The notes under the pieces were generated by a model. It was not told the DNA's origin. It made no database searches and worked only from the letters and a program-made list of their open reading frames with translations. Shown here in pieces: positions 7,231 through 23,576 of a stretch of 33,400 bases of DNA. The DNA comes from a virus, in IMG/VR virus record IMGVR_UViG_3300027851_000081, positions 1 to 33,400 of that record; one strand, written 5' to 3'. The position numbers and the translations under genes were made by a program. Numbering within the stretch: the first letter of the stretch is position 1; every line of letters starts with the position of its first letter.

Positions 7231-7455
7231 ATGATTATCCTACTTGATAATTGGCGTGCAGTCGTCGTTGATTCTGTTAAAGGAATTGTTGTGCTGGATC
7301 TGACAGCTGACAGTGAAGCTGAGGCAAAGGGTCGCGCACGCACCGCAGCAGAAACCCACCTAAAATGCAAAGCAATCAAAAGTGTGATCGTGAAGCGTCA
7401 CACAGAAATGCCGATGGCATGGCTGCGCAGTGATGCTAATGCGAAGATTCACTGA
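7231..7455 (+). CDS. Small hypothetical protein, 74 aa
   Basis: A 74-residue frame starting MIILLDNWRAVVVDSVKGIV and ending in SDANAKIH. AAAGGAAA lies 5-12 bases before the ATG. The pattern of alternating hydrophobic residues followed by an Ala-rich helix and a second strand suggests a small alpha/beta fold with no transmembrane segment. It is the last gene of the rightward block and ends just before a strong bidirectional terminator. I recognise no family. Confidence 0.7.
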   Translation: MIILLDNWRAVVVDSVKGIVVLDLTADSEAEAKGRARTAAETHLKCKAIKSVIVKRHTEMPMAWLRSDANAKIH

Positions 7456-7492
7456 TTATCTAGCTGCTTGTTGACAAATACAACCTGACAAT

Positions 7493-7532
7493 AAAAAGCC
7501 CCCTCTCCTTGCGGAGTAGGGGGTTTCTTTTT
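7493..7532. terminator. Bidirectional intrinsic terminator between convergent blocks
   Basis: A G+C-rich hairpin (CCCCCTCTCC paired with GGAG-T-AGGGGG, one bulged T, TTGC loop) is preceded by AAAAA and followed by TTTCTTTTT. Read from either strand it has a U-rich tail. It lies between the stop of the last rightward gene (7455) and the stop of the last leftward gene (7564), so it would end both operons. Confidence 0.9.
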
Positions 7533-7554
7533 GCCTGCTACTTTTTTGCCTGCT
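7528..7554. repeat. Short direct repeat next to the terminator
   Basis: The 12-mer TTTTTGCCTGCT occurs at 7528-7539 and again at 7543-7554, offset by 15 bases, inside the terminator tail and the gap before the 3' end of the leftward gene. It is probably a slippage duplication. Confidence 0.7.
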
Positions 7555-7563
7555 TTATGTTGG

Positions 7564-10500
7564 CTATTCTTCAAATTGCTGGCTTGCTTCCTGACTCATC
7601 AGGTTGTTGCGATAATCAGAGAGTTCCTCCCCGCCCATAAGCATCTGCAACTTTTGTGCGTATGGATTGCCCATCTTCTGCGCAAGCTGGTTGACAATGC
7701 TAACATTGGAATCCCTACTCCAACGTTGCATAGCTTGTGAGAAGTTCTCAATTCTGCCGCCAGACCTTGTATAGCGCAGCATGAAATCTTCAAGTTCCTC
7801 AGTGCTTGGCACTTCATTTGAATAGAGCTTGGTTTTGACTTGCTCTCCAAGTCTCTCAATCCTGGCACGATCCATTGCTTCGTAACTCTTGTTACGATAC
7901 ATGGCATTAAGTGCCACGGCTTCATCCATCGGACGGGCACCAAGCAGCCTCGTTGCACCTTCAATGGAGATAGCCCGGTCCACAAAGTTGCTCAGATAGC
8001 TGGACGTCTCAAGATCAATAGATGCACTGATAAGCGCACCTTTATTATCTGTGCTCCGCCCAGCCAGCAGTTGCGCAAATCCAGCCAACGGACGATTCCA
8101 TCCTTGATGCTCCAGCCCCTGCAACAGTGTGTCGCCAAAGTCTGCGCCCTGCACAATATTCTTGCCAGTGTCGTACAGAGAAGTGGCAAGCTTTATGCTT
8201 GCAGAAACGGCAGGCACATCTGCAATAGCAGTAGGTAGAATAAGAGCGTGGCGAGGGTTAATATCTCCTCGGGTAAAGAACGCAGGCGCACTGCCACTGA
8301 AAAGAGGAAATGCAGAAGCCGTTCCATAGAGCATCCAATCTCCAAGTTCTTTGTTGAAGGCAGGAAGTGCACTGTATGCATCTTTGTGTTCTGGGTTGTT
8401 TGCAATCATTCCCCCGATAAGGTGAGTGTTGACAGCATCAAAGAAAGGCAGACCATTCAAGCCGAAGATGCTTCCCTGCAGACCCGCAAAAATAGCAAGT
8501 GTCCTCTTATCGCCTCGCTCCATGTGCCGGTACAGCTGCTGCAGCACGTTGAATGCGTATGTCTGGAACAGGCTGACAGCTGCACCTGTGGTTCCTTGGA
8601 ACACGACTGGGCGCTGACTGGTGACATAGTTACCTTGTACCCTGTTGACAAATGTGCTGATGAATGCATTCTGCTCTTTGATGGTAAGCCTGCCGCCATC
8701 AACCAGCGGTTGACTCAGCTGGCGCATAACATCAGCAGAGATAAAGCGAGTGAAATCCTCAGTAAAGGTGTTGCCGCTGATCTTTGCGCCAAGCTCCACA
8801 GCAGAGTCAATGCGCTTGCTCCACTTTCCCATCTCCAGCTTAGGATCATACGCAACCATGTCAAGCATCTGATGGTACTGACTGCTAACATCCTTAACTG
8901 CTCCAATTCCCTTATAGCGAGCTAGCAGCTGATCTTTCTCACCTGAGAAGAAGTTGTTGATACTGTTGCCGATGAGCTTAGTGGTAGAGGGTGCGCGCCC
9001 AGGATGCCCTGGAATCTTGACAGAGGTCAATTCTCTCAATGCGCCAGCCATGGTGTCATCATCGCGAATCATCTTCTTGATGCTGGCCATCTCAGTGCCG
9101 AGCATGATAGGGGTACTGATGACGTTGATGAGACTGTTGGCAAAGTCAAAACGGAGCATGGTTGTTGCCAGCGCCATGTTTGCTTTTTGGAATGCAGTGC
9201 GGATCAAGTTCTTGGGATAGCGCTCATTGGCTGCAAGATAGTCATCCCAGCCCTTGTACATACCACCGATACCTTTTTCTTCCATGATCTTGTTGGCATC
9301 TTCCCAGCTTATGATACCATTCTTTGCATCGGCAAAGCCTTTGTTGATTGCATCCCACGCAGTAACTCCAAGCTTATCAACGAACTCATTCAACGAGTCA
9401 AGCAGCGGAAACTCTTGCTGTTTACTGATATTGAGCGCAGTCTTGATGTAGTCGCCGAATGGGTCAGCAACTTTACTCTTGAAGCGAGAACCAATTCCAC
9501 GGGTCACAGACTCGCTGACCTTGCGATACTGCTCAGACAGAAGTCTCAGCTCGGAGAAGAACTCGCGAGACTGAACTTGCACTGCCTCACGAACAAGTTT
9601 CTCTTCTTGCCGAGCGTGCCATTGTAGCCAATCTTCATTGATGTTTTCAAATCGCGTTTCAGGGAAAGCATCAGCAAGTTTTCCCCGACGTGACAATTCA
9701 GTCTGCACTGCACTTTCATGCAGGGTCATCTGATAGTCATACTCTCCCTTGATCTTGAAGTAGTTATCAGTATCTTGCTTGAAGAACACATCAAAGTCAT
9801 CGCTAACAGAATTAGCAAGTTCCCTGAGTTGTACTTCATCCTTGGCTGTAATCATGCCAACGTCCGTCCCAAGGCCGAGCTTCGGCTTGGTTTTGACAAA
9901 CGCATGGTACTGATATTTCACAGTGTTGATGGGCGGAGCATAGACAATAGGAGCTTCATCTAGGTTACGCGTGAGGCCTGCAGCATTGTGCAGCACACCA
10001 AACTTCTGTTGGCGAGCATGATTGATGTTTGCACTTTCTGCAAGAAAGTCTGCGACAGGCTTGTTTCTGATCTGAATGCTTGCAGGACTTCCCTTGATTT
10101 CAGGAATCAGCGCAAGAGCTTCATCAATACCAATCTTTTTGGACTTGGCAAGTTTAATCACTTCAGTGCTGATGAGTCGTGTAGGGTCTTCAGGGTCAAC
10201 GATGTAGCGATGCTGACTACGGCGCAACATAGTAGTAACAATGCCAAGCTCTGCAGCTGCTTCGGTATCTTCCCTCAGCGCGTTAACATGAGGTGCCAGC
10301 GACTCGACAGTTTGATCCATCCTGCGTTGACTAACTAACGCAACAGATTTACCAGTATTCTGCACCCACAGGCGCGCACGCTCGCCATAGCCAGCATTGC
10401 TAGCACCAAATAACGTAGCACCTGCGCCTTCAACACCAGTATCCCTTGAGAGGAGTTTGTATGCTGGCATAAACTGGTCAAGATCAGCTCCAAGCACGGC

Positions 10501-12660
10501 AGCAGCTGCGGTCTCATTAACCTGAGTACGTACAGCACGTTGGTACTCTTTAGTGAGTTCCTTTGTTATGAGGTGTGCTGGGCCCATATTCATGTTGTAC
10601 GCCTCTTCTGGCAACAACTTGGGAGTCCACCCGAAATCCCACGTAGCCATGACAGTGCGAGGTTTGAGCGCTTCCGCAGTGTCAAAGACTTTGCCATCTG
10701 TTGGATCTGGCATGTTCGGCTTACGTGGGGCGAATCCGCTCTCAATGCTCTTTTCAATCCACCGATAGTCAGTGTTCAAGTGAGCAGCCAGCACGCGAAC
10801 ATCTGGCACAGAGCCCATAGCTTCCGTCCAGTTTGCGAACTCAGTCTCCAGCCACTCAAGTCGCTTCTCGTCCAGCAGACTGCGCAAAGAGACAACATCA
10901 TCCCACTCGATTTCATTGCCAGCGGCAGAATCAAACAACTTGAAATTACGCAGCTGAGCTTCAGTGAGTTCTTTCTTATCCAGTGCCTCAGCCAGCCGAG
11001 TCAACATAGGGAAGTCGTACACATCCACGCCATCTTTCGCAGCAGTTTTCAACGCAGAAGCGTTGAGTTGGCTGACCCATGCCCAGCGAGCCGAAGACTC
11101 CAGTGGGGAATCTGCCATGCTAGCAGCCTTACTTGCTGCCATGGCATATTTCTGTCCGTTAACGTAGATCGCATCTGGGGAGATTTGCAATCGTCCCTTC
11201 TTGAGAATATCACCAATAACTGCAGCGGTCTCATTGGTGAGCGCACCAGTCTCAAGATCAATCAGTTGACTGATCTGAACAGGATTCTCCTTGAGTTTGA
11301 TGATCTTCTGAGAGAGTGGGTTAACCCGCACACTGCCATCGGCCAAGCGAATAATATCTGCGTCAGGGGCGCTCCTGAACATCTCTTTCAAGCTGGTGCC
11401 CACAACTTCGTCGGCGTTCTTGATAACAATGTCAGTTTCAGTGATATCATCTGCGAGCACATACGGAGACTTAAGCGTATCTTTAGTGCGCTTCTTGGAG
11501 AACATACCGGTCAGTCGCTCAAGCGGACTATCGCCGGCAGCTTTCGCAGTGACGTAAAACTTGCGCTTATCCAACTCAATCTTTGCAATGTCAATAGCTT
11601 TGATACTGTCGAGATTGGCAAGATATCCATGCAATTTCTGAGTAATCTCAGTTGGAGAGAGCCCAGCAGCTTTGCTGGCTTCAACCGCGTTTTGCATGAA
11701 TTGGAAGTATGCTTGTCCAATACGCTCGTCTCCCTGTGCGAGAGTATTGAACTTCATGGCTAGCTTGTCTGCGCCTAGGCGCTCAGCCTCCATGGTAATC
11801 CGCTGGAGAGCTTTCTCTGTATTGAGCGTGATGCTCTGCGCTTTGCCATCCAGCTTATAGCTGAATTTAAGATTGTCAGCAGTTTGCGGCAAAGATAGCA
11901 GAGACTCTGCCATAATCAAGGATTCCGTACCTTTGCTCAAGCCAAGTTTTGCAGGATCACTGAGCGCATCGTGCAGGCGAGCAGCAGATTGAATCTCCTT
12001 CTCTGCGCTGCGCATGATGCCCTTAGCAGCAATACTGCCAACCGCTCCGCCAATCACCCCACCGAATGCTGCGCCAAGCGCAACGTTCCAGCCAAAATCC
12101 CCGAGACTGTCGCCCTCAAATACCGGAGAATCATTCATGGTCGCAGCGATCATAAGCTCTGCAGCAGTGGCTTGCATAGCTTGGTCGGCAGTCTCCCAGC
12201 CAAGATACTTCAGACGATTCTTAGTAAGGAGTTTGGGAATAGTGCCACCAGTTGCTGCAGTTTCTTGCAATGCAGCTTGTAGGTACTTGGATTTATTGCT
12301 ATTGGCCAAGTTGAGGTACTTGCCAAAGTTACCAACTGTCACACCCGCACGAGCGAGCTGCAAACCCTTCACGCCAATGGAGCCAGGAATGAGTGCAGTG
12401 CCAACAAAGCCAACAAGATCAAGGGCATTGCGGTTCTCTGCGTAGTAATCCCCCATCTCATCGCCACCGAACCTGCGGACGGCAGATTCAATGTCTACTT
12501 CATTCTCTGTAGAGAGGAAAGAGTTATAGATGCTCATTGCCCCACTAACTGCTGCAGCTGGCACACCTTTGCTCATCGCTGCATTCAAACGTGTGAGCGT
12601 ACCGGCTTGATAGTCGGTAGTTTCTGCTGCGAGATTTACGGGATGGTACTCAAATGGCAT
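7564..12660 (-). CDS. Very large internal virion (DNA ejection) protein, 1698 aa
   Basis: This 1698-residue protein is presumed to be carried in the virion and to help move DNA through the host envelope, by analogy with large ejection proteins of podoviruses. The sequence shows Gly/Ala-rich hydrophobic stretches near 80-100 (LDLVGFVGTALIPGSIGVKG) and 190-215 (VALGAAFGGVIGGAVGSIAA) that could insert into membrane. A long helical body follows, and a segment near 1345-1380 (RPVVFQGTTGAAVSLFQTYA, then FNVLQQLYRHM) resembles the end of other phage polyvalent/ejection proteins. I find no lysozyme, lytic transglycosylase or single-subunit RNA polymerase signature, so it is not an N4-like virion RNA polymerase by eye. 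AAAGGAAA precedes the ATG. It is the last gene of the leftward block and contains one copy of the 12-bp palindrome. Confidence 0.85.
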   Translation of the reverse strand: MPFEYHPVNLAAETTDYQAGTLTRLNAAMSKGVPAAAVSGAMSIYNSFLSTENEVDIESAVRRFGGDEMGDYYAENRNALDLVGFVGTALIPGSIGVKGLQLARAGVTVGNFGKYLNLANSNKSKYLQAALQETAATGGTIPKLLTKNRLKYLGWETADQAMQATAAELMIAATMNDSPVFEGDSLGDFGWNVALGAAFGGVIGGAVGSIAAKGIMRSAEKEIQSAARLHDALSDPAKLGLSKGTESLIMAESLLSLPQTADNLKFSYKLDGKAQSITLNTEKALQRITMEAERLGADKLAMKFNTLAQGDERIGQAYFQFMQNAVEASKAAGLSPTEITQKLHGYLANLDSIKAIDIAKIELDKRKFYVTAKAAGDSPLERLTGMFSKKRTKDTLKSPYVLADDITETDIVIKNADEVVGTSLKEMFRSAPDADIIRLADGSVRVNPLSQKIIKLKENPVQISQLIDLETGALTNETAAVIGDILKKGRLQISPDAIYVNGQKYAMAASKAASMADSPLESSARWAWVSQLNASALKTAAKDGVDVYDFPMLTRLAEALDKKELTEAQLRNFKLFDSAAGNEIEWDDVVSLRSLLDEKRLEWLETEFANWTEAMGSVPDVRVLAAHLNTDYRWIEKSIESGFAPRKPNMPDPTDGKVFDTAEALKPRTVMATWDFGWTPKLLPEEAYNMNMGPAHLITKELTKEYQRAVRTQVNETAAAAVLGADLDQFMPAYKLLSRDTGVEGAGATLFGASNAGYGERARLWVQNTGKSVALVSQRRMDQTVESLAPHVNALREDTEAAAELGIVTTMLRRSQHRYIVDPEDPTRLISTEVIKLAKSKKIGIDEALALIPEIKGSPASIQIRNKPVADFLAESANINHARQQKFGVLHNAAGLTRNLDEAPIVYAPPINTVKYQYHAFVKTKPKLGLGTDVGMITAKDEVQLRELANSVSDDFDVFFKQDTDNYFKIKGEYDYQMTLHESAVQTELSRRGKLADAFPETRFENINEDWLQWHARQEEKLVREAVQVQSREFFSELRLLSEQYRKVSESVTRGIGSRFKSKVADPFGDYIKTALNISKQQEFPLLDSLNEFVDKLGVTAWDAINKGFADAKNGIISWEDANKIMEEKGIGGMYKGWDDYLAANERYPKNLIRTAFQKANMALATTMLRFDFANSLINVISTPIMLGTEMASIKKMIRDDDTMAGALRELTSVKIPGHPGRAPSTTKLIGNSINNFFSGEKDQLLARYKGIGAVKDVSSQYHQMLDMVAYDPKLEMGKWSKRIDSAVELGAKISGNTFTEDFTRFISADVMRQLSQPLVDGGRLTIKEQNAFISTFVNRVQGNYVTSQRPVVFQGTTGAAVSLFQTYAFNVLQQLYRHMERGDKRTLAIFAGLQGSIFGLNGLPFFDAVNTHLIGGMIANNPEHKDAYSALPAFNKELGDWMLYGTASAFPLFSGSAPAFFTRGDINPRHALILPTAIADVPAVSASIKLATSLYDTGKNIVQGADFGDTLLQGLEHQGWNRPLAGFAQLLAGRSTDNKGALISASIDLETSSYLSNFVDRAISIEGATRLLGARPMDEAVALNAMYRNKSYEAMDRARIERLGEQVKTKLYSNEVPSTEELEDFMLRYTRSGGRIENFSQAMQRWSRDSNVSIVNQLAQKMGNPYAQKLQMLMGGEELSDYRNNLMSQEASQQFEE
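11771..11782. repeat. 12-bp palindrome GCGCCTAGGCGC, copy 1
   Basis: Perfect palindrome inside the 1698-residue ejection gene, read there in the frame G|CGC|CTA|GGC|GC (Arg-Leu-Gly-Ala). It is the same 12-mer as at 29362, 30480 and 32197. Confidence 0.9.
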
Positions 12661-12720
12661 GATTTTCCTTTAGCCCCATCGGGCAACTTGGAGAGTTAAA
12701 CGCTACAGGAAGTAGCAGGC

Positions 12721-14514
12721 TTATTGCTTGGGAGCACCAAACAGCTGACGATTGAATCCACTCAGAATCGGGTTAGCCTGAAGGTTTTGAGACTGCTGCT
12801 GCGACAGGGCGCCAAGTGTGCCCTTTTTCTGGTCCACTGCCATGCGCGTGATTTCTTTCTTGACGCTAGCAGGATCCATCAGATCGAGCTTGAATGGTTG
12901 GCTGAACATGTTCAGCGCTGGAACTGTGATAATCGCAGAAGTTTGCTGCGGCAAGCCAAATTGTGTGTAGTTGTACAGATTCAAGTTCTGCGCAGCTGCA
13001 ACTTGGTGCAGGCGCACAATATCTTGGACAGCCTTGTCAAGCGGAAGTTTGCCATCTGCCACCTGCTGAGAGACAGTCTTGACTAGCGTCTCAATATCTT
13101 TACCGCGGAGGTTATCGCTAGCGCCCTGTCCCATGGTAGCAGAGCGCACAGTCTTCAGCGCGTCAACTGCCACGTTGCCTTTGAGGCTGGGGATTGTGCC
13201 AGCTTCCACCGCGTCCAGCAGGGCAAAGTATTGTGGTTTGTATGGATTGAGTGTGCTGTCCCATTGCGAGGAATTCAGCGACTTGGGAGCTGCGAAACTT
13301 TGTGCAGATTGCACAACTTCGTATTCATATTTATCTGCTGCCAGCTGGACAGCTTCTTTGCCAGAAACCTTTTGTCCAGAGGCAAGAGCTTCATTAACAA
13401 CAGCTTGCTGATAGTTCTGAATTCCAAGCTCGCTGGCCCGGATGAAATTAGCCATGCCCGGGTTGCTTGCAGTGATAACCTGCGGAATGCCAGCTTGCTG
13501 CACAGTTGCAATACTCTCCAGCAGACCGCCACCGAACTTGCCAGACACTGCAACTTTGACAAGTTGATCTTGCTTGTCCTTGGGCAGAACTTTGATGGAC
13601 GTGAGAGTAATCGGGCTGGTGTAGCCGAGCGCCATACTTGCTGCTGCCAACTGCTTGTTGAACAGCTCGCGCTCAGCATCAACTTCAGCTTTTGTCTCAG
13701 CCCGCGCCCGGCGCTCAGCAGCTGCAGCAGCACGCTGCTCTGCCAATGCTGCACGTTGAAGTGCCCACTGCTCCAGGGAAATTTGCTTATTGATGAGATC
13801 AGACTGAATCTGGAATACATCCCCTGCAAGCCGGTAGCTGTCTAGTGCTCGCGCCCCGATTTTAGAGATGTTGTCAATCTTCATCGTGTTGAGTTCTAGC
13901 TGCGCAGTGCGAGAAGCCACCTCTGCTTTCTTGAGTGCAAGAGTATTAGCAGCCTCTGCGGTATTAGCAACAACTGCGCTGTTGCGTGCATTGAGCAAAT
14001 TCATCCGCGTAGTGATGTTCTCTGCTGCACGCTCTCGACGTGTGATTGATTCGCTCTCTTGGTTCAAGAGAGAGTTATGTTTGGCTGCGACAGTGGGCAG
14101 AGCAAGTTGCGCCACAAGATACTGGATAGGATTCTCCAGCAAGTTCACGCTTTGCATTTGCTCAATAGTGCGCATCGCAACACCTCGTTGCTGCTCAAGT
14201 GCCTGAACTTGCTGCTGCTCAGAGGTGAATGCAGCCATGCTCCTGACCATCTCATTGTCAAGATCGTCAGGATTCATGCCAACCAGTGCTGCGTTTGCTT
14301 CCTTGGCTTTGCCTATTTTGTAGTCAATTGCAGCCTGCTCAGCTGCTGCAGCAGTAGATTGTTGCACCAATGCAGCAGCTTCTTGCTCATTTGTATTCAT
14401 GAGCGTTTTGATCTGCGCAGTGCCCACATCCAACTCCTGCTGTGCAGCAGTGTTCTGGTTGATGCGAGCATGTGCTGCGCCAGTGAACTGAGAGAGAAGT
14501 TGGTTAATGTCCAT
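12721..14514 (-). CDS. Coiled-coil internal virion protein, 597 aa
   Basis: This 597-residue Ala/Gln-rich protein is mostly helical, with long coiled-coil stretches from about 20 to 290 (for example AALVQQSTAAAAEQAAIDYK and QRAALAEQRAAAAAERRARA). The C-terminal half is less repetitive. It lies directly before the giant ejection gene, and together with it and the smaller upstream genes probably makes up the ejection apparatus. That role is inferred from position and composition; no enzymatic motif is seen. The ATG at 14514 has only a weak GAAAGAA upstream, and 15 bases separate it from the preceding stop. The 60-base gap before the ejection gene shows no clear promoter. Confidence 0.8.
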   Translation of the reverse strand: MDINQLLSQFTGAAHARINQNTAAQQELDVGTAQIKTLMNTNEQEAAALVQQSTAAAAEQAAIDYKIGKAKEANAALVGMNPDDLDNEMVRSMAAFTSEQQQVQALEQQRGVAMRTIEQMQSVNLLENPIQYLVAQLALPTVAAKHNSLLNQESESITRRERAAENITTRMNLLNARNSAVVANTAEAANTLALKKAEVASRTAQLELNTMKIDNISKIGARALDSYRLAGDVFQIQSDLINKQISLEQWALQRAALAEQRAAAAAERRARAETKAEVDAERELFNKQLAAASMALGYTSPITLTSIKVLPKDKQDQLVKVAVSGKFGGGLLESIATVQQAGIPQVITASNPGMANFIRASELGIQNYQQAVVNEALASGQKVSGKEAVQLAADKYEYEVVQSAQSFAAPKSLNSSQWDSTLNPYKPQYFALLDAVEAGTIPSLKGNVAVDALKTVRSATMGQGASDNLRGKDIETLVKTVSQQVADGKLPLDKAVQDIVRLHQVAAAQNLNLYNYTQFGLPQQTSAIITVPALNMFSQPFKLDLMDPASVKKEITRMAVDQKKGTLGALSQQQSQNLQANPILSGFNRQLFGAPKQ

Positions 14515-14529
14515 GATTTATTCTTTCAG

Positions 14530-15675
14530 TTAGTAGTATGGAGTAAAAGAAGAAAGGGATGCTCTAGTGAGAGTCCTCCCGTTAGCTCCAATAGATTGAA
14601 GCGCCCCTTCAATATCGTAGGCATCTGGCCATGCAGCCAGTGAAGCCAGGTACTGCGTGCCGGCCAGCACTAGCTCACCATTGATGGGGAACAGTAGCGG
14701 GCCGTTGCTGTCTCCTCCCTGCACGTCATCACTCCAGCCCGAGAACTGGCCGGCAGTAAAATGCCCGACTAGAAATCCGTTGTTGTAGTTCGTGCGGCTC
14801 TGAACCTGTAGGAATCGCAGCCGCGCCGCGCCACTGGCATGCTCTATGTTGAGAGCGGGCCACTGTATGCCGTCCGCGTAGAGCGTTCCAGGCCGCATGT
14901 AGGACTCCCAGCCAGTGGGCAGCAGTTTCATGGGGGCAATAGCAGTAATGGGACTGCCCAAGCGACACATCTGCCAAGTGTTTCCAACTCCTATAGCAGC
15001 AGAAATTGTCCGAGTGTGCTGCGTGCCATTCATCTCCACAAAGACAACTTTATCTCCAACGCTACGTGTGACGTGCATGCACCAGACGTGTTCAGGCGTA
15101 ACGAGGATGCCTGGATACTGACTGTTTGTCTGGTCACCAATGCAGGCACTAATGGCTGACATATCGTAAGCAGCAGCAATACTTCCACTGTTTCGCGTTG
15201 CTGACAGTGCGGAGGTGTTACCGGAAATACTGCTGTAGACCAGCCGCGTAGAGTCGCTAGGAGTCTTGCTAGCAATCATTGCGGCGCAGGCATCATAGAC
15301 ATGTGCCGCCAGAGACCCCGGCACCCAGCGCACAAAAGCCTTACTGACAGCTGGACCGTCCACTTCCCACTCCCGTATGACAGTGCCTCCACGGTAAGTA
15401 GCAGACAGTCTTGACAGTCCCGGACCACGGTACTCTGCACTGTTTCCACTCAGTGCAGCCACGTCCGGTGTGTTGTTAGCAAGTGTGTAGTCTGGATATA
15501 GCGTAGAGGGCTGCAACGACACATCAAACATGGTGGCGGAACCGGCGGAGAATGTGTAGTCGGACTCCACGTCGCGCTCTTGCAGGCGCTGCGTGCCTGC
15601 GGCAATGGCCTGCGTCCGAGCCGTCAGCGTCAGGCGCAGGTTCTGATCCCCCTGATAACCAATGATCCACACCAT
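14530..15675 (-). CDS. Virion protein with a trypsin-like serine protease fold (probably degenerate)
   Basis: This 381-residue protein has features of the chymotrypsin/trypsin-like fold in its second half. A His-bearing strand lies at 189-205 (GILVTPEHVWCMHVTRS, candidate H201). A Ser motif lies at 320-329 (GGDSNGPLLF, candidate S323), a variant of GDSGGP, followed by the usual hydrophobic strand INGELVLAGT. Where the catalytic Asp would fall, the sequence reads TWQMCRLGSPI (Q235), so the triad looks incomplete. The C-terminal ALQSIG...LTRASLSSF resembles the ends of related phage proteins. The N-terminal 110 residues are probably a virion-attachment region. The ATG lies 3 bases after the previous stop with no good Shine-Dalgarno, so translation is likely coupled. 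The gene sits among tail/ejection genes. The fold is inferred by eye; activity is unknown. Confidence 0.65.
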   Translation of the reverse strand: MVWIIGYQGDQNLRLTLTARTQAIAAGTQRLQERDVESDYTFSAGSATMFDVSLQPSTLYPDYTLANNTPDVAALSGNSAEYRGPGLSRLSATYRGGTVIREWEVDGPAVSKAFVRWVPGSLAAHVYDACAAMIASKTPSDSTRLVYSSISGNTSALSATRNSGSIAAAYDMSAISACIGDQTNSQYPGILVTPEHVWCMHVTRSVGDKVVFVEMNGTQHTRTISAAIGVGNTWQMCRLGSPITAIAPMKLLPTGWESYMRPGTLYADGIQWPALNIEHASGAARLRFLQVQSRTNYNNGFLVGHFTAGQFSGWSDDVQGGDSNGPLLFPINGELVLAGTQYLASLAAWPDAYDIEGALQSIGANGRTLTRASLSSFTPYY

Positions 15676-15678
15676 GGT

Positions 15679-16341
15679 TTAACCGAACAGAAACACGCTT
15701 CCAGTGACCGCCACGTCCGCGCCGGCGTCCACCTGAACGTCCATTGAGAGCACTGTGTTGGAACACGCCATTGCAGACGCGGTGACAATCTGGGTTCCGT
15801 TGTCCGATACAGCTAAGGGGCTACTGGCAGGGGCAAAATACCCTCCACTGTATTGCGGGAAGATAGCAACGCCAACCCCGGCAGATGCGTCACCAGTGGC
15901 GTCAATACTCACTGGGTGGAATCCATAGTACGCGCCGATATTCGAGGTGAAAGACAACACGATGAAACGCGGCTTGAAGGGAAGTGCTGTAGTGAGTGTA
16001 TTCCCGGCTGCGGTCGCATTGCCACTGATGCCTCGAACATCCGACCGCATACCGAGAAGCTGAGTTCCGCCCTGTCCGGCGGGAAGCTGCACCACAATGC
16101 CAGGAGCGTTGCTCGGCACCATCAGTTCCCCGAGATTTCCCGTCAGCGCCAGCAGGTTGGCCAGCGTGTCATAGCGCGGGATGATGTTTGCGACCAGCGG
16201 GTCTGGCAGTGTGCCACCCCCCACACTGCCAACCGGAACTGCCACATCTTCTCCGGTTTCCAAGTCATGCACAGCAACAAGATCAGTAGAATTCAACTGT
16301 GTGGGCCGCTGGCGTAGTTGATTGATTCCAAGTTTGCTCAT
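15679..16341 (-). CDS. Minor virion/tail-associated protein, 220 aa
   Basis: A 220-residue protein beginning MSKLGINQLRQRPTQLNSTD with a short adaptor-like N-terminus (LVAVHDLETGEDVAVPVGSV), typical of phage tail proteins that bind another virion part. A Gly/Thr-rich beta domain follows from about 100 (GNATAAGNTLTTALPFKPRF...), suited to a small trimeric or jelly-roll module. GGAGATATC lies before the ATG. Its end is 3 bases from the protease-like gene, so the two may act together at the tail tip. Assignment is by position and composition only. Confidence 0.7.
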   Translation of the reverse strand: MSKLGINQLRQRPTQLNSTDLVAVHDLETGEDVAVPVGSVGGGTLPDPLVANIIPRYDTLANLLALTGNLGELMVPSNAPGIVVQLPAGQGGTQLLGMRSDVRGISGNATAAGNTLTTALPFKPRFIVLSFTSNIGAYYGFHPVSIDATGDASAGVGVAIFPQYSGGYFAPASSPLAVSDNGTQIVTASAMACSNTVLSMDVQVDAGADVAVTGSVFLFG

Positions 16342-16386
16342 GAGATATCTCCAAAGAATTTGAGGGTAAGAGATTGAGTCACTATA

Positions 16387-17178
16387 TTATGCTTGATGAG
16401 ACCCGACGCCAGCAGCATTACCGCCAGATTGTCCAATGCCGCCACCATACCCGCCAAAGCCCCCACCACTGCCACCATCATCGCGAGAGTAGCGCAGATT
16501 GCCAAGATCGCTGCCAACTTGCCCGAATCCAGTCATGCCACTGCCGCCGACAGTAGAATCTGGCGTACTTGTGTCAGGAGAGCTGAATGTCTGCGCCAGG
16601 ACTTCTCCCAGTGTAGGAACTCCAAACAGGGAGGCGATTCCGTTAAGTGCGCCCAGTACGGGATTGGCAAGGCTAAGAGTACTATTGATGGCAAGCGAAG
16701 TGTTACCATTCAGCAGGCCACTTGCAATACCAATTGCACCTGTTGGTGCACCTGCAAGGCTCAGGGCAGGCCCAACAAAACTACCAAGTGCCTGTTGGTC
16801 TGTCTTGGATTTACTGAGATTACCGGCAAGTCCCAGCACTCCGCCTGCCATGCTAGCATCTGCGTTGCCTGCAATAGTTCCAAGGGCAGAACTGACTCTA
16901 CCAATGTTGCCAATCATACCGCCAAGTGCGGGATCAGCTGCGCCACCAAAAGTGCGATCAGTTCCACTTCCAGAGGAAGTAGCTGTGCCCATGCCAAACA
17001 CTTCTGACATATCAGTCGGTTGACGCTCGGCAGGCAGAGCAGCAACTAGCTGCCGGCGCATCAGCTCGTCAACCGACTGAGTAGGAATGCTATTGTCAGC
17101 AGTGCTCTTTGTTGGAGTGTATGGAGTGTAGAGCGGATTAGCGCTCCTGCGACTTCCACCAGCTTGAATAGTTGCCAT
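16387..17178 (-). CDS. Glycine-rich minor virion protein, 263 aa
   Basis: A 263-residue Gly/Ala/Ser-rich protein. The N-terminus (MATIQAGGSRRSANPLYTPY) is polar. The centre (about 85-205) is a set of hydrophobic Gly/Ala-rich helices (SLAGAPTGAIGIASGLL, LANPVLGALNGIASLFG) that could associate with membrane. The last 40 residues are a flexible Gly-rich tail. AAGGAGAAG precedes the ATG. Between two other low-complexity minor virion genes, it is a candidate small ejection protein, analogous in layout to the small internal proteins of podoviruses. I recognise no family. Confidence 0.7.
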   Translation of the reverse strand: MATIQAGGSRRSANPLYTPYTPTKSTADNSIPTQSVDELMRRQLVAALPAERQPTDMSEVFGMGTATSSGSGTDRTFGGAADPALGGMIGNIGRVSSALGTIAGNADASMAGGVLGLAGNLSKSKTDQQALGSFVGPALSLAGAPTGAIGIASGLLNGNTSLAINSTLSLANPVLGALNGIASLFGVPTLGEVLAQTFSSPDTSTPDSTVGGSGMTGFGQVGSDLGNLRYSRDDGGSGGGFGGYGGGIGQSGGNAAGVGSHQA

Positions 17179-22280: not shown

Positions 22281-23576
22281 TTACAGTTCTGCATTCAACG
22301 TAATAAGCCTGTCCACACTATACACGTCTCCTGCTCCAGTAGATTGTATCTCAAGCCTAAATGAGCTCAAACTCCCCGGATGGAGTGTTACTGTGCCTAG
22401 ATTAGTAGCACCTCCTGACGCAGACGTTGCTGGTACTGCCCTCATCTGGACAGGATAGTATACTTGCGAACATAAATATTGTCCAGCAGCTGTAGCGTTT
22501 CCACGCACGGAACCAATAGCGTAAGAAAAATAACGCTGACACATAAGCAGCTCATGCCCATAATTACGATACTCAAAGGGCGTAGCAACACTGCCTTTTT
22601 CCAGCTGGACGCCTGTAATAGCGAAGATGTTTCCAACAGCATCCAAACAATTTACTTGATTTACCGTAGATATGAAATTTCCTGCCTGCCAGGCGTCTGC
22701 AGTTGTTTGGTATGTAGCGCCTGCTGCCAAGACAAAAGATACTACAAGTCCACGTCCACTGGTCCAATTCCAAGAACCTGCAGTCGTTAAGCCGCCGACT
22801 ACTGATACAGATTTAGTTTCCCAGGTGTTTGCAGCGGTGATAGTGTATTCACACACAAACGAGCGATCGCCGCCGTCATTTACAAACGCGACACAATGCA
22901 CGCCAGTTTTGCTGGAGCGCACTCTAAAAGATAGTGTAAATGTCTTACCAATCAAGTCACGAACATTGTAACCTTCTATGTACTGACGAATTGTGCTGTA
23001 CTGTCCGGCTGCAATAGTGACGTCCGCAGTCGTAACTGCTACGCGCAGGCTACTCTGAAACTCGTTGTCGGCAGGTACATCAGAATTTTGCGTTATGGTG
23101 ACCGCTCCGTCGTTACTGGACAGTTGAAGCCAACGATCCAATGTATACGCTCCAGCCGCAGGAGAAATAAACGACGTGCCCCGCTGCGCAATTATCATCG
23201 CACCATTGATAATCCGATTGCGCGCTCCAAGCATGGATACTGTTTCGGACTTGCTGTATACATCAACAAGACTGCGAGCCTCGGATGCAGTATCTACAGC
23301 CAACAGAGTTTCACCAAATACACCAGTCTCTAGTGCAGTAGTGGTAAAATCTCTGGCAACAGGTTGACCTGTTGATTCGTCGAATTTGAAGAACTTACCT
23401 GCACGATCAGCTGCTGCTGGCAGTTCAGCCCTGTTGCTTGCTAGGTCAGTTGCAGGAAAATATACTGCACGAAGCGTCTTAGCTTTGTGGGTACGAAATT
23501 CAAGCGCCGCAGTCTCCACTTCTTTGTCTTCCGTAGGCTGCGTAGAATCGTCAGCATTGGGGATGTAAGTTGCCAC
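22281..23576 (-). CDS. Tail fibre/receptor-binding protein with carbohydrate-binding-like domain
   Basis: This 431-residue protein probably contacts the host surface. After an N-terminal virion-attachment part (1-110), residues 120-149 carry the familiar fibre motif NRIINGAMIIAQRG...YTLDRW. A jelly-roll, carbohydrate-binding-like domain follows from about 160 to 330 (ISTxxQYIEGYN...KTFTLSFRVRSS, ending ITGVQLEKGSVATPFEYRN). The YGHELLMCQRYF motif (339-350) then leads into a C-terminal beta domain with GNATAAG. These motifs recur at the distal ends of many podovirus and siphovirus tail fibres. The start is GTG at 23576 with GGAGAA 8-13 bases upstream. No lyase or hydrolase catalytic residues are obvious. 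Confidence 0.85.
   Translation of the reverse strand: MATYIPNADDSTQPTEDKEVETAALEFRTHKAKTLRAVYFPATDLASNRAELPAAADRAGKFFKFDESTGQPVARDFTTTALETGVFGETLLAVDTASEARSLVDVYSKSETVSMLGARNRIINGAMIIAQRGTSFISPAAGAYTLDRWLQLSSNDGAVTITQNSDVPADNEFQSSLRVAVTTADVTIAAGQYSTIRQYIEGYNVRDLIGKTFTLSFRVRSSKTGVHCVAFVNDGGDRSFVCEYTITAANTWETKSVSVVGGLTTAGSWNWTSGRGLVVSFVLAAGATYQTTADAWQAGNFISTVNQVNCLDAVGNIFAITGVQLEKGSVATPFEYRNYGHELLMCQRYFSYAIGSVRGNATAAGQYLCSQVYYPVQMRAVPATSASGGATNLGTVTLHPGSLSSFRLEIQSTGAGDVYSVDRLITLNAEL

Follow-up and report, generated by a model that had tools for sequence, protein, structure and literature searches.

The 381-residue protein described here is, at somewhat better than even odds (a probability of about 0.55), a virion-associated pseudoprotease: a divergent member of an uncatalogued, fibre-linked family of trypsin-fold proteins that would be used for binding. 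It is encoded in the window analysed, a 33.4-kb IMG/VR virus record from a PaP2/PaMx41-like podovirus (Table 1), and consists of an amino-terminal beta-rich region followed by a predicted chymotrypsin-fold domain that lacks the catalytic aspartate. This reading is based on the homology of the protein to the family, its predicted fold, the presence of a His-Asp-Ser triad in the rest of the family, the occurrence of Thr233 and Asn324 in this protein only, the intact reading frame and the insertion of the gene as part of a cassette. The plus strand of positions 14530-15675 contains no open frame.

Table 1. Positions of the features discussed, in window coordinates
Feature	Position	Strand	Basis
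Gene for the 381-residue protein	14530..15675	minus (15675 to 14530)	open reading frame; profile match, hhalign, model
Amino-terminal beta-rich region (residues 1-105)	15361..15675	minus	weak phmmer similarity; hhalign starts at residue 61
Profile-matched stretch (residues 105-380): linker helix and predicted trypsin-fold domain	14536..15363	minus	family profile; Foldseek to trypsins, Factor IXa
His196, second His	15088..15090	minus	conserved across the family
His201, putative catalytic His (His57 equivalent)	15073..15075	minus	sequence alignment
Thr233, at the position of the catalytic Asp (Asp102)	14977..14979	minus	alignment, model, codon
Ser323, putative catalytic Ser (Ser195 equivalent)	14707..14709	minus	sequence alignment
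Two-gene cassette (220 and 381 residues)	14515..16386	minus	absent from L024
Gene for the 220-residue partner	15679..16341	minus	stop 3 nt ahead of the start of the 381-residue frame
Upstream flank: 263-residue Gly-rich structural protein, positional equivalent of PaMx41 gp22	16387..17178	minus	locus comparison
Downstream flank: 597-residue protein, positional equivalent of PaMx41 gp23 (virion structural protein)	12721..14514	minus	locus comparison
1698-residue protein, homologue of PaMx41 gp24	7564..12660	minus	phrog_16165, E 1.7e-46; tblastn

Fold and active-site residues

The model of the complete protein, calculated with AlphaFold using the family alignment, has a pLDDT of 83.7 and a pTM of 0.79 and predicts a chymotrypsin/trypsin fold. 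Comparison with the PDB by Foldseek gave 223 matches with E ≤ 1e-3, with plasminogen, Factor IXa and trypsins at the top; the best 50 of the 223 comprise proteases of trypsin fold, chains from complexes with that fold and chains of the Umb1 umbrella toxin. The best viral match is a protein from an uncultured Caudovirales phage (E 2.6e-16). The first-pass annotation had named structure prediction and a fold search among the ways to examine the chymotrypsin-like motifs that it described, and trypsins are what this search returned. When residues 1-120 were modelled separately, a poor model resulted (pLDDT 61.8). Residues 1-105 show weak similarity by phmmer to the amino-termini of family members L160 and L105, and Asp35, located in this region, is nearly invariant across the family. 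The region is probably Ig/Big-like; BACON/Big matches are found in other members.

The TPEHVWCMH motif begins at residue 193 and places histidines at positions 196 and 201. His201, rather than His196, is assigned as the putative catalytic histidine, because the family motif GtliTpRHvlfAaHy aligns with GTLITPNHVLTAAHC of chymotrypsinogen C in a profile search against PDB sequences; in the same search, the GDSGNP motif of the family aligns with GDSGGP of chymotrypsinogen C. The corresponding GGDSNGP motif begins at residue 320, so that Ser323 is followed by Asn324 and Gly325 where the family has Gly-Asn; the GDS and the Pro are retained, and Asn-Gly replaces Gly-Asn. Translation and alignments with the family and with PDB sequences agree with the first-pass annotation that His201 and Ser323 are present and that their order and placement fit a chymotrypsin fold; from these alignments, the two residues would be equivalent to the active-site His and Ser. 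Asp317 (14725-14727) precedes Ser323 by six residues, which by sequence count is the spacing of trypsin Asp189, the residue of the Arg/Lys pocket; judged by eye, this position is variable in the family.

The TWQMC motif begins at residue 233, which is assigned as the Asp102 site because the model puts a beta-strand at residues 234-239. The codon for Thr233 is ACT. No fewer than two base substitutions separate this codon from one for Asp, so one misread base would not account for the threonine, and an error at this position is unlikely.

A fibre-linked family with trypsin-like motifs

Searched alone, the 381-residue protein has no match in Pfam, PHROGs, NCBIfam or the PDB sequences, and no relative was accepted from tblastn against phages or from the search of viral contigs. 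The candidates were discarded: a weak tblastn match in MT835794 falls in an open reading frame without a protease motif, those in Xanthomonas phages run antisense to the annotated gene, and the sole encoded match in a scan of viral contigs for GDSNGP is an unrelated 929-residue protein. The family was recovered by scanning viral contigs for GDSGNPxF, which yielded about 58 proteins with a common [ST]P[RK]H....H motif; its signature is [ST]PRH....H, Asp and GDSGNP. Against a profile of 52 viral members, the 381-residue protein scores 110 bits over residues 105-380 (E 6e-36). With hhalign, a closer subset of 11 sequences aligns over residues 61-380 with a probability of 99.4% (E 4.7e-22). Both histidines of the [ST]PxH...H motif are present (TPEH196 and His201). 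With its homology beyond doubt, the protein is classed here as a variant member rather than an intact protease of the family.

Identities to the other members range from about 20 to 29%, with 29% the best to any of them. With the GDSGNP family (for example BFVD entry A0A6J7XEP5 and members L098-L170), the protein has in common the architecture over residues 61-380, the His motif with its preceding conserved His, the carboxy-terminus and the gene position after a fibre-type gene; it differs in having Thr and Asn-Gly instead of Asp and Gly-Asn, besides the low identity. The His preceding the catalytic one, equivalent to His196 and five residues ahead of the catalytic His, is present in all 94 viral members scored and in 72 of the 79 bacterial members. 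With the S1 (Pfam Trypsin) proteases, it shares the predicted fold and the His and Ser motifs that align with chymotrypsinogen C, but it has no Pfam match, no Asp, insertions relative to the cellular enzymes and an amino-terminal region of phage type. The other family members match the Pfam trypsin models weakly (best E 0.011 for Trypsin and 0.042 for DUF316) and have no common PHROG, and the family therefore appears to be uncatalogued in Pfam, PHROGs and NCBIfam. The profile search of PDB sequences with the family finds chymotrypsinogen C and elastases, weakly. No paper on the GDSGNP phage family was found in the open-access literature searched.

The family comprises phage proteins and secreted proteins of Verrucomicrobiota, Planctomycetota and other bacteria. 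Bacterial members (L219-L297) are common in Verrucomicrobiota, Planctomycetota, Lentisphaerae/Kiritimatiellae and Patescibacteria, often have signal-peptide-like amino-termini and reach lengths of about 1,500 residues. Viral and bacterial members are intermixed on the tree, where the supported branches force at least five changes.

Across phages, the family genes directly follow another gene on the same strand, usually a fibre, Mtd-N or minor-tail gene. In a sample of upstream genes made up of 50 family neighbours and the 220-residue partner in the window, the matches are to tail fibres, collagen-like minor tail proteins, Mtd_N (6 members), Phage_min_tail (4 members) and virion-structural proteins; a minority of the sampled genes have other functions. 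In many phages, the members are fused to tail proteins or adjoin them. For member L157, the matches to T4-like gp37 cover the amino-terminal fibre part and not the protease domain, and were set aside. Locus L099 contains three trypsin-like genes interleaved with fibre-like genes (7835-13821), and locus L209 two modules of a fibre-like and a trypsin-like gene (7935-13271); these tandem arrangements suggest module duplication. In the podovirus MW202510, a member is located between a 259-residue annotated rhamnogalacturonan lyase and a gene annotated fN3, following genes for internal virion and structural proteins. The first-pass annotation had considered proteases of this fold uncommon in the tail or ejection region of short-tailed phages. 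This is not supported: phage contigs commonly carry the family, in most cases next to a tail-fibre gene, and MW202510 provides at least one other podovirus member.

The inserted gene pair and its surroundings

The terminase, portal and 1698-residue proteins of the window are related to those of Pseudomonas phages PaP2, 119X and PaMx41, the last classed in Fredfastierviridae, and also to those of Aeromonas phage P5, EBPR podovirus 3 and Polaromonas phage Tiera. Homologues of the 1698-residue protein are annotated as a structural protein (PaMx41 gp24) and, in Ph_15, as an ejection protein. In the closest relative found, L024, in which the 1698-residue protein is 69% identical, the gp22-like open reading frame (7236-8177) is directly followed by the gp23-like one (8181-9974). 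Since the genes for the 220- and 381-residue proteins sit between the equivalents of these two adjoining genes, they form an inserted pair. A recognisable homologue of either was found in none of the 80 loci related via the 1698-residue gene. The position between the gp22 and gp23 equivalents also agrees with the placement in a virion or ejection gene block given by the first-pass annotation.

The 220-residue partner has a fibre-type amino-terminus (MSKLGINQLRQRPTQLNSTDLVAVHD...), with a motif common to the upstream partners in L209, L212, L213 and L215. A regular expression for this motif matches 11 of 9,954 open reading frames, compared with 0.25 per shuffle; the count is descriptive, because the expression was written after the sequences had been seen, and the 11 include one unrelated frame and several copies. 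The partner has no matches to database families and no relatives in the viral contigs, and we call it fibre-like from its amino-terminal motif. Elsewhere in the window, the phage appears to have a further fibre besides the cassette, since a separate 431-residue gene on the minus strand (22281-23576) matches a PHROG of tail fibres (E 2e-67). On the plus strand, the frame at 5808-6812 matches, over residues 73-152, a PHROG for a sulfatase-modifying factor enzyme (E 1e-20) and has no Pfam match, while an HNH endonuclease frame (2521-2937), possibly a homing endonuclease, shares 4 nt with the end of the DNA polymerase gene.

In T2-type phages, the adhesin gp38 of the tail-fibre tip is encoded just downstream of the fibre gene. 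The gene order may be alike here, a fibre-like gene followed by that of a probable cap or adhesin, but the fold is different, and no sequence relationship between gp38 and the 381-residue protein was found. The arrangement of the cassette also bears on whether the protein belongs to the virion at all. It could be a non-structural or moron product, for instance a secreted or intracellular late factor that lies in the virion block by chance, as the gene was inserted and is absent from L024, and as related domains occur in bacterial proteins with signal-peptide-like starts. We regard this as improbable, given that family members are fused to or adjoin tail proteins in many phages and that the gene starts 3 nt after the fibre-like gene, directly downstream of it and inside a structural operon.

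Loss of the catalytic aspartate and possible function

Catalytic residues were compared in 205 distinct, complete domains (126 viral and 79 bacterial), gathered by patterns for the Ser motif and for the His motif, by a scan of bacterial genome contigs and by a last viral scan, the two scans using a closer subset of the family because the alignment of all members was too diverse for this purpose; Asp was absent from every search pattern. The His-Asp-Ser combination is present in 204 of the 205. Only the 381-residue protein has His-Thr-Ser (His201, Thr233 and Ser323) and thus no complete triad, so the absence of Asp from the expected site, pointed out in the first-pass annotation, is real and set against Asp in 204 other complete domains. 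In the set gathered by the His motif only, all 32 scorable domains retain the Asp and the Ser. The residue after the catalytic Ser is Gly in 202 domains and Ser in two; Asn occurs only in the 381-residue protein.

The protein is among the most divergent members of the family, with an end branch of 2.15; its position on the tree is unsupported and no sister group is claimed. Divergence alone does not account for the loss of the Asp, because L218, L175 and L171 are equally long-branched, yet have His-Asp-Ser. Both the Asp and the post-Ser Gly are altered, which, with the long branch and a best identity of 29%, is what might be expected of a once-active protease gene that is decaying towards loss. 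We think this very improbable: there is no frameshift or stop, the frame is intact through the conserved carboxy-terminus with its LTxxxLSSFxxY motif, His and Ser are retained, and the equally long branches of other intact members indicate that such branches are normal in the family. Being full-length with conserved termini, the gene is not considered decayed, and an intact frame as far as the conserved carboxy-terminus at about 20-29% identity argues, for this single sequence, for selection at the protein level.

The main rival to the pseudoprotease reading is a weak His-Ser dyad, because both residues are retained. The protein would then still be a protease, in which His201 and Ser323, perhaps aided by Thr233 or another side chain, slowly cleave its precursor, its partner fibre or a protein on the host surface. 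Not only His201 and Ser323 but also Asp322 and the oxyanion-hole residue Gly321 have been kept at this low identity to relatives, the other members appear to be catalytically competent, so that protease function would be ancestral, and Asp317 has the spacing of trypsin Asp189 from Ser323. However, an otherwise strictly conserved Asp has become Thr, the Gly present after the Ser in nearly all domains has become Asn, and no acidic residue is near position 233 in the sequence. In trypsin, loss of Asp102 is crippling at neutral pH; with Asn in its place, activity falls by some four orders of magnitude. On balance we consider the dyad unlikely. The reuse as a binding module put forward in the first-pass annotation is plausible, and this copy may be catalytically dead or a weak dyad. 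The retention of His201, Ser323 and Gly321, which binding would not need, counts against a pure binding module, and some residual activity may be present.

For the pseudoprotease reading, the closest parallel is UmbA of the Streptomyces umbrella toxin (PDB entry 8w20), chains of which rank 8, 10 and 12 in the Foldseek comparison. The trypsin domain of UmbA has an incomplete triad, as in our protein, is not active on a trypsin substrate and holds in its cleft, uncut, the extended amino-terminal peptide of its partner UmbB (PMC11062931). UmbA is part of a multi-protein particle that binds target bacteria. It differs in having carboxy-terminal lectin domains and in belonging to a bacterial toxin particle, while the 381-residue protein has no such lectin domain and ends at the conserved carboxy-terminus of the trypsin family; the likeness lies in the predicted fold and the incomplete triad.

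By analogy with UmbA, a binding role is the best reading of the protein. The ancestor would have been a His-Asp-Ser trypsin-like protein tied to fibres. In this phage, a pair of fibre-like and trypsin-like genes was inserted into the ejection-gene block, and the triad has lost its acid and the Ser loop has changed, with the predicted fold and the frame preserved. The protein would be carried on the virion beside, or on, the 220-residue fibre-like protein. Without an Asp to orient and polarise His201, proteolysis would be lost or very weak, and the retained cleft may bind the partner fibre or a ligand on the host surface, as the cleft of UmbA binds its partner. A broader proposal, which we offer as tentative and rather doubtful in its entirety, is that phages carry a widespread module of a fibre and a trypsin-fold protein docked on the tail fibre, in most cases a working protease whose target is the host surface or the fibre, and in this phage a pseudoprotease serving as adhesin or clamp that holds the 220-residue partner in the old cleft, in parallel to UmbA and UmbB.

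Trypsin-fold pseudoproteases were already known; what is new is an uncatalogued fibre-linked phage family and one member of it without the Asp. A large family of phage proteins with trypsin-like catalytic residues, unmatched in Pfam, PHROGs and NCBIfam, is tied to tail-fibre genes, and within it a natural variant lacks the catalytic Asp, which makes the comparison of His-Asp-Ser and His-Thr-Ser members informative. Should the family act at the tip of the fibre, serine proteases, in this case an inactive one, may serve phages in recognising hosts or maturing their fibres.
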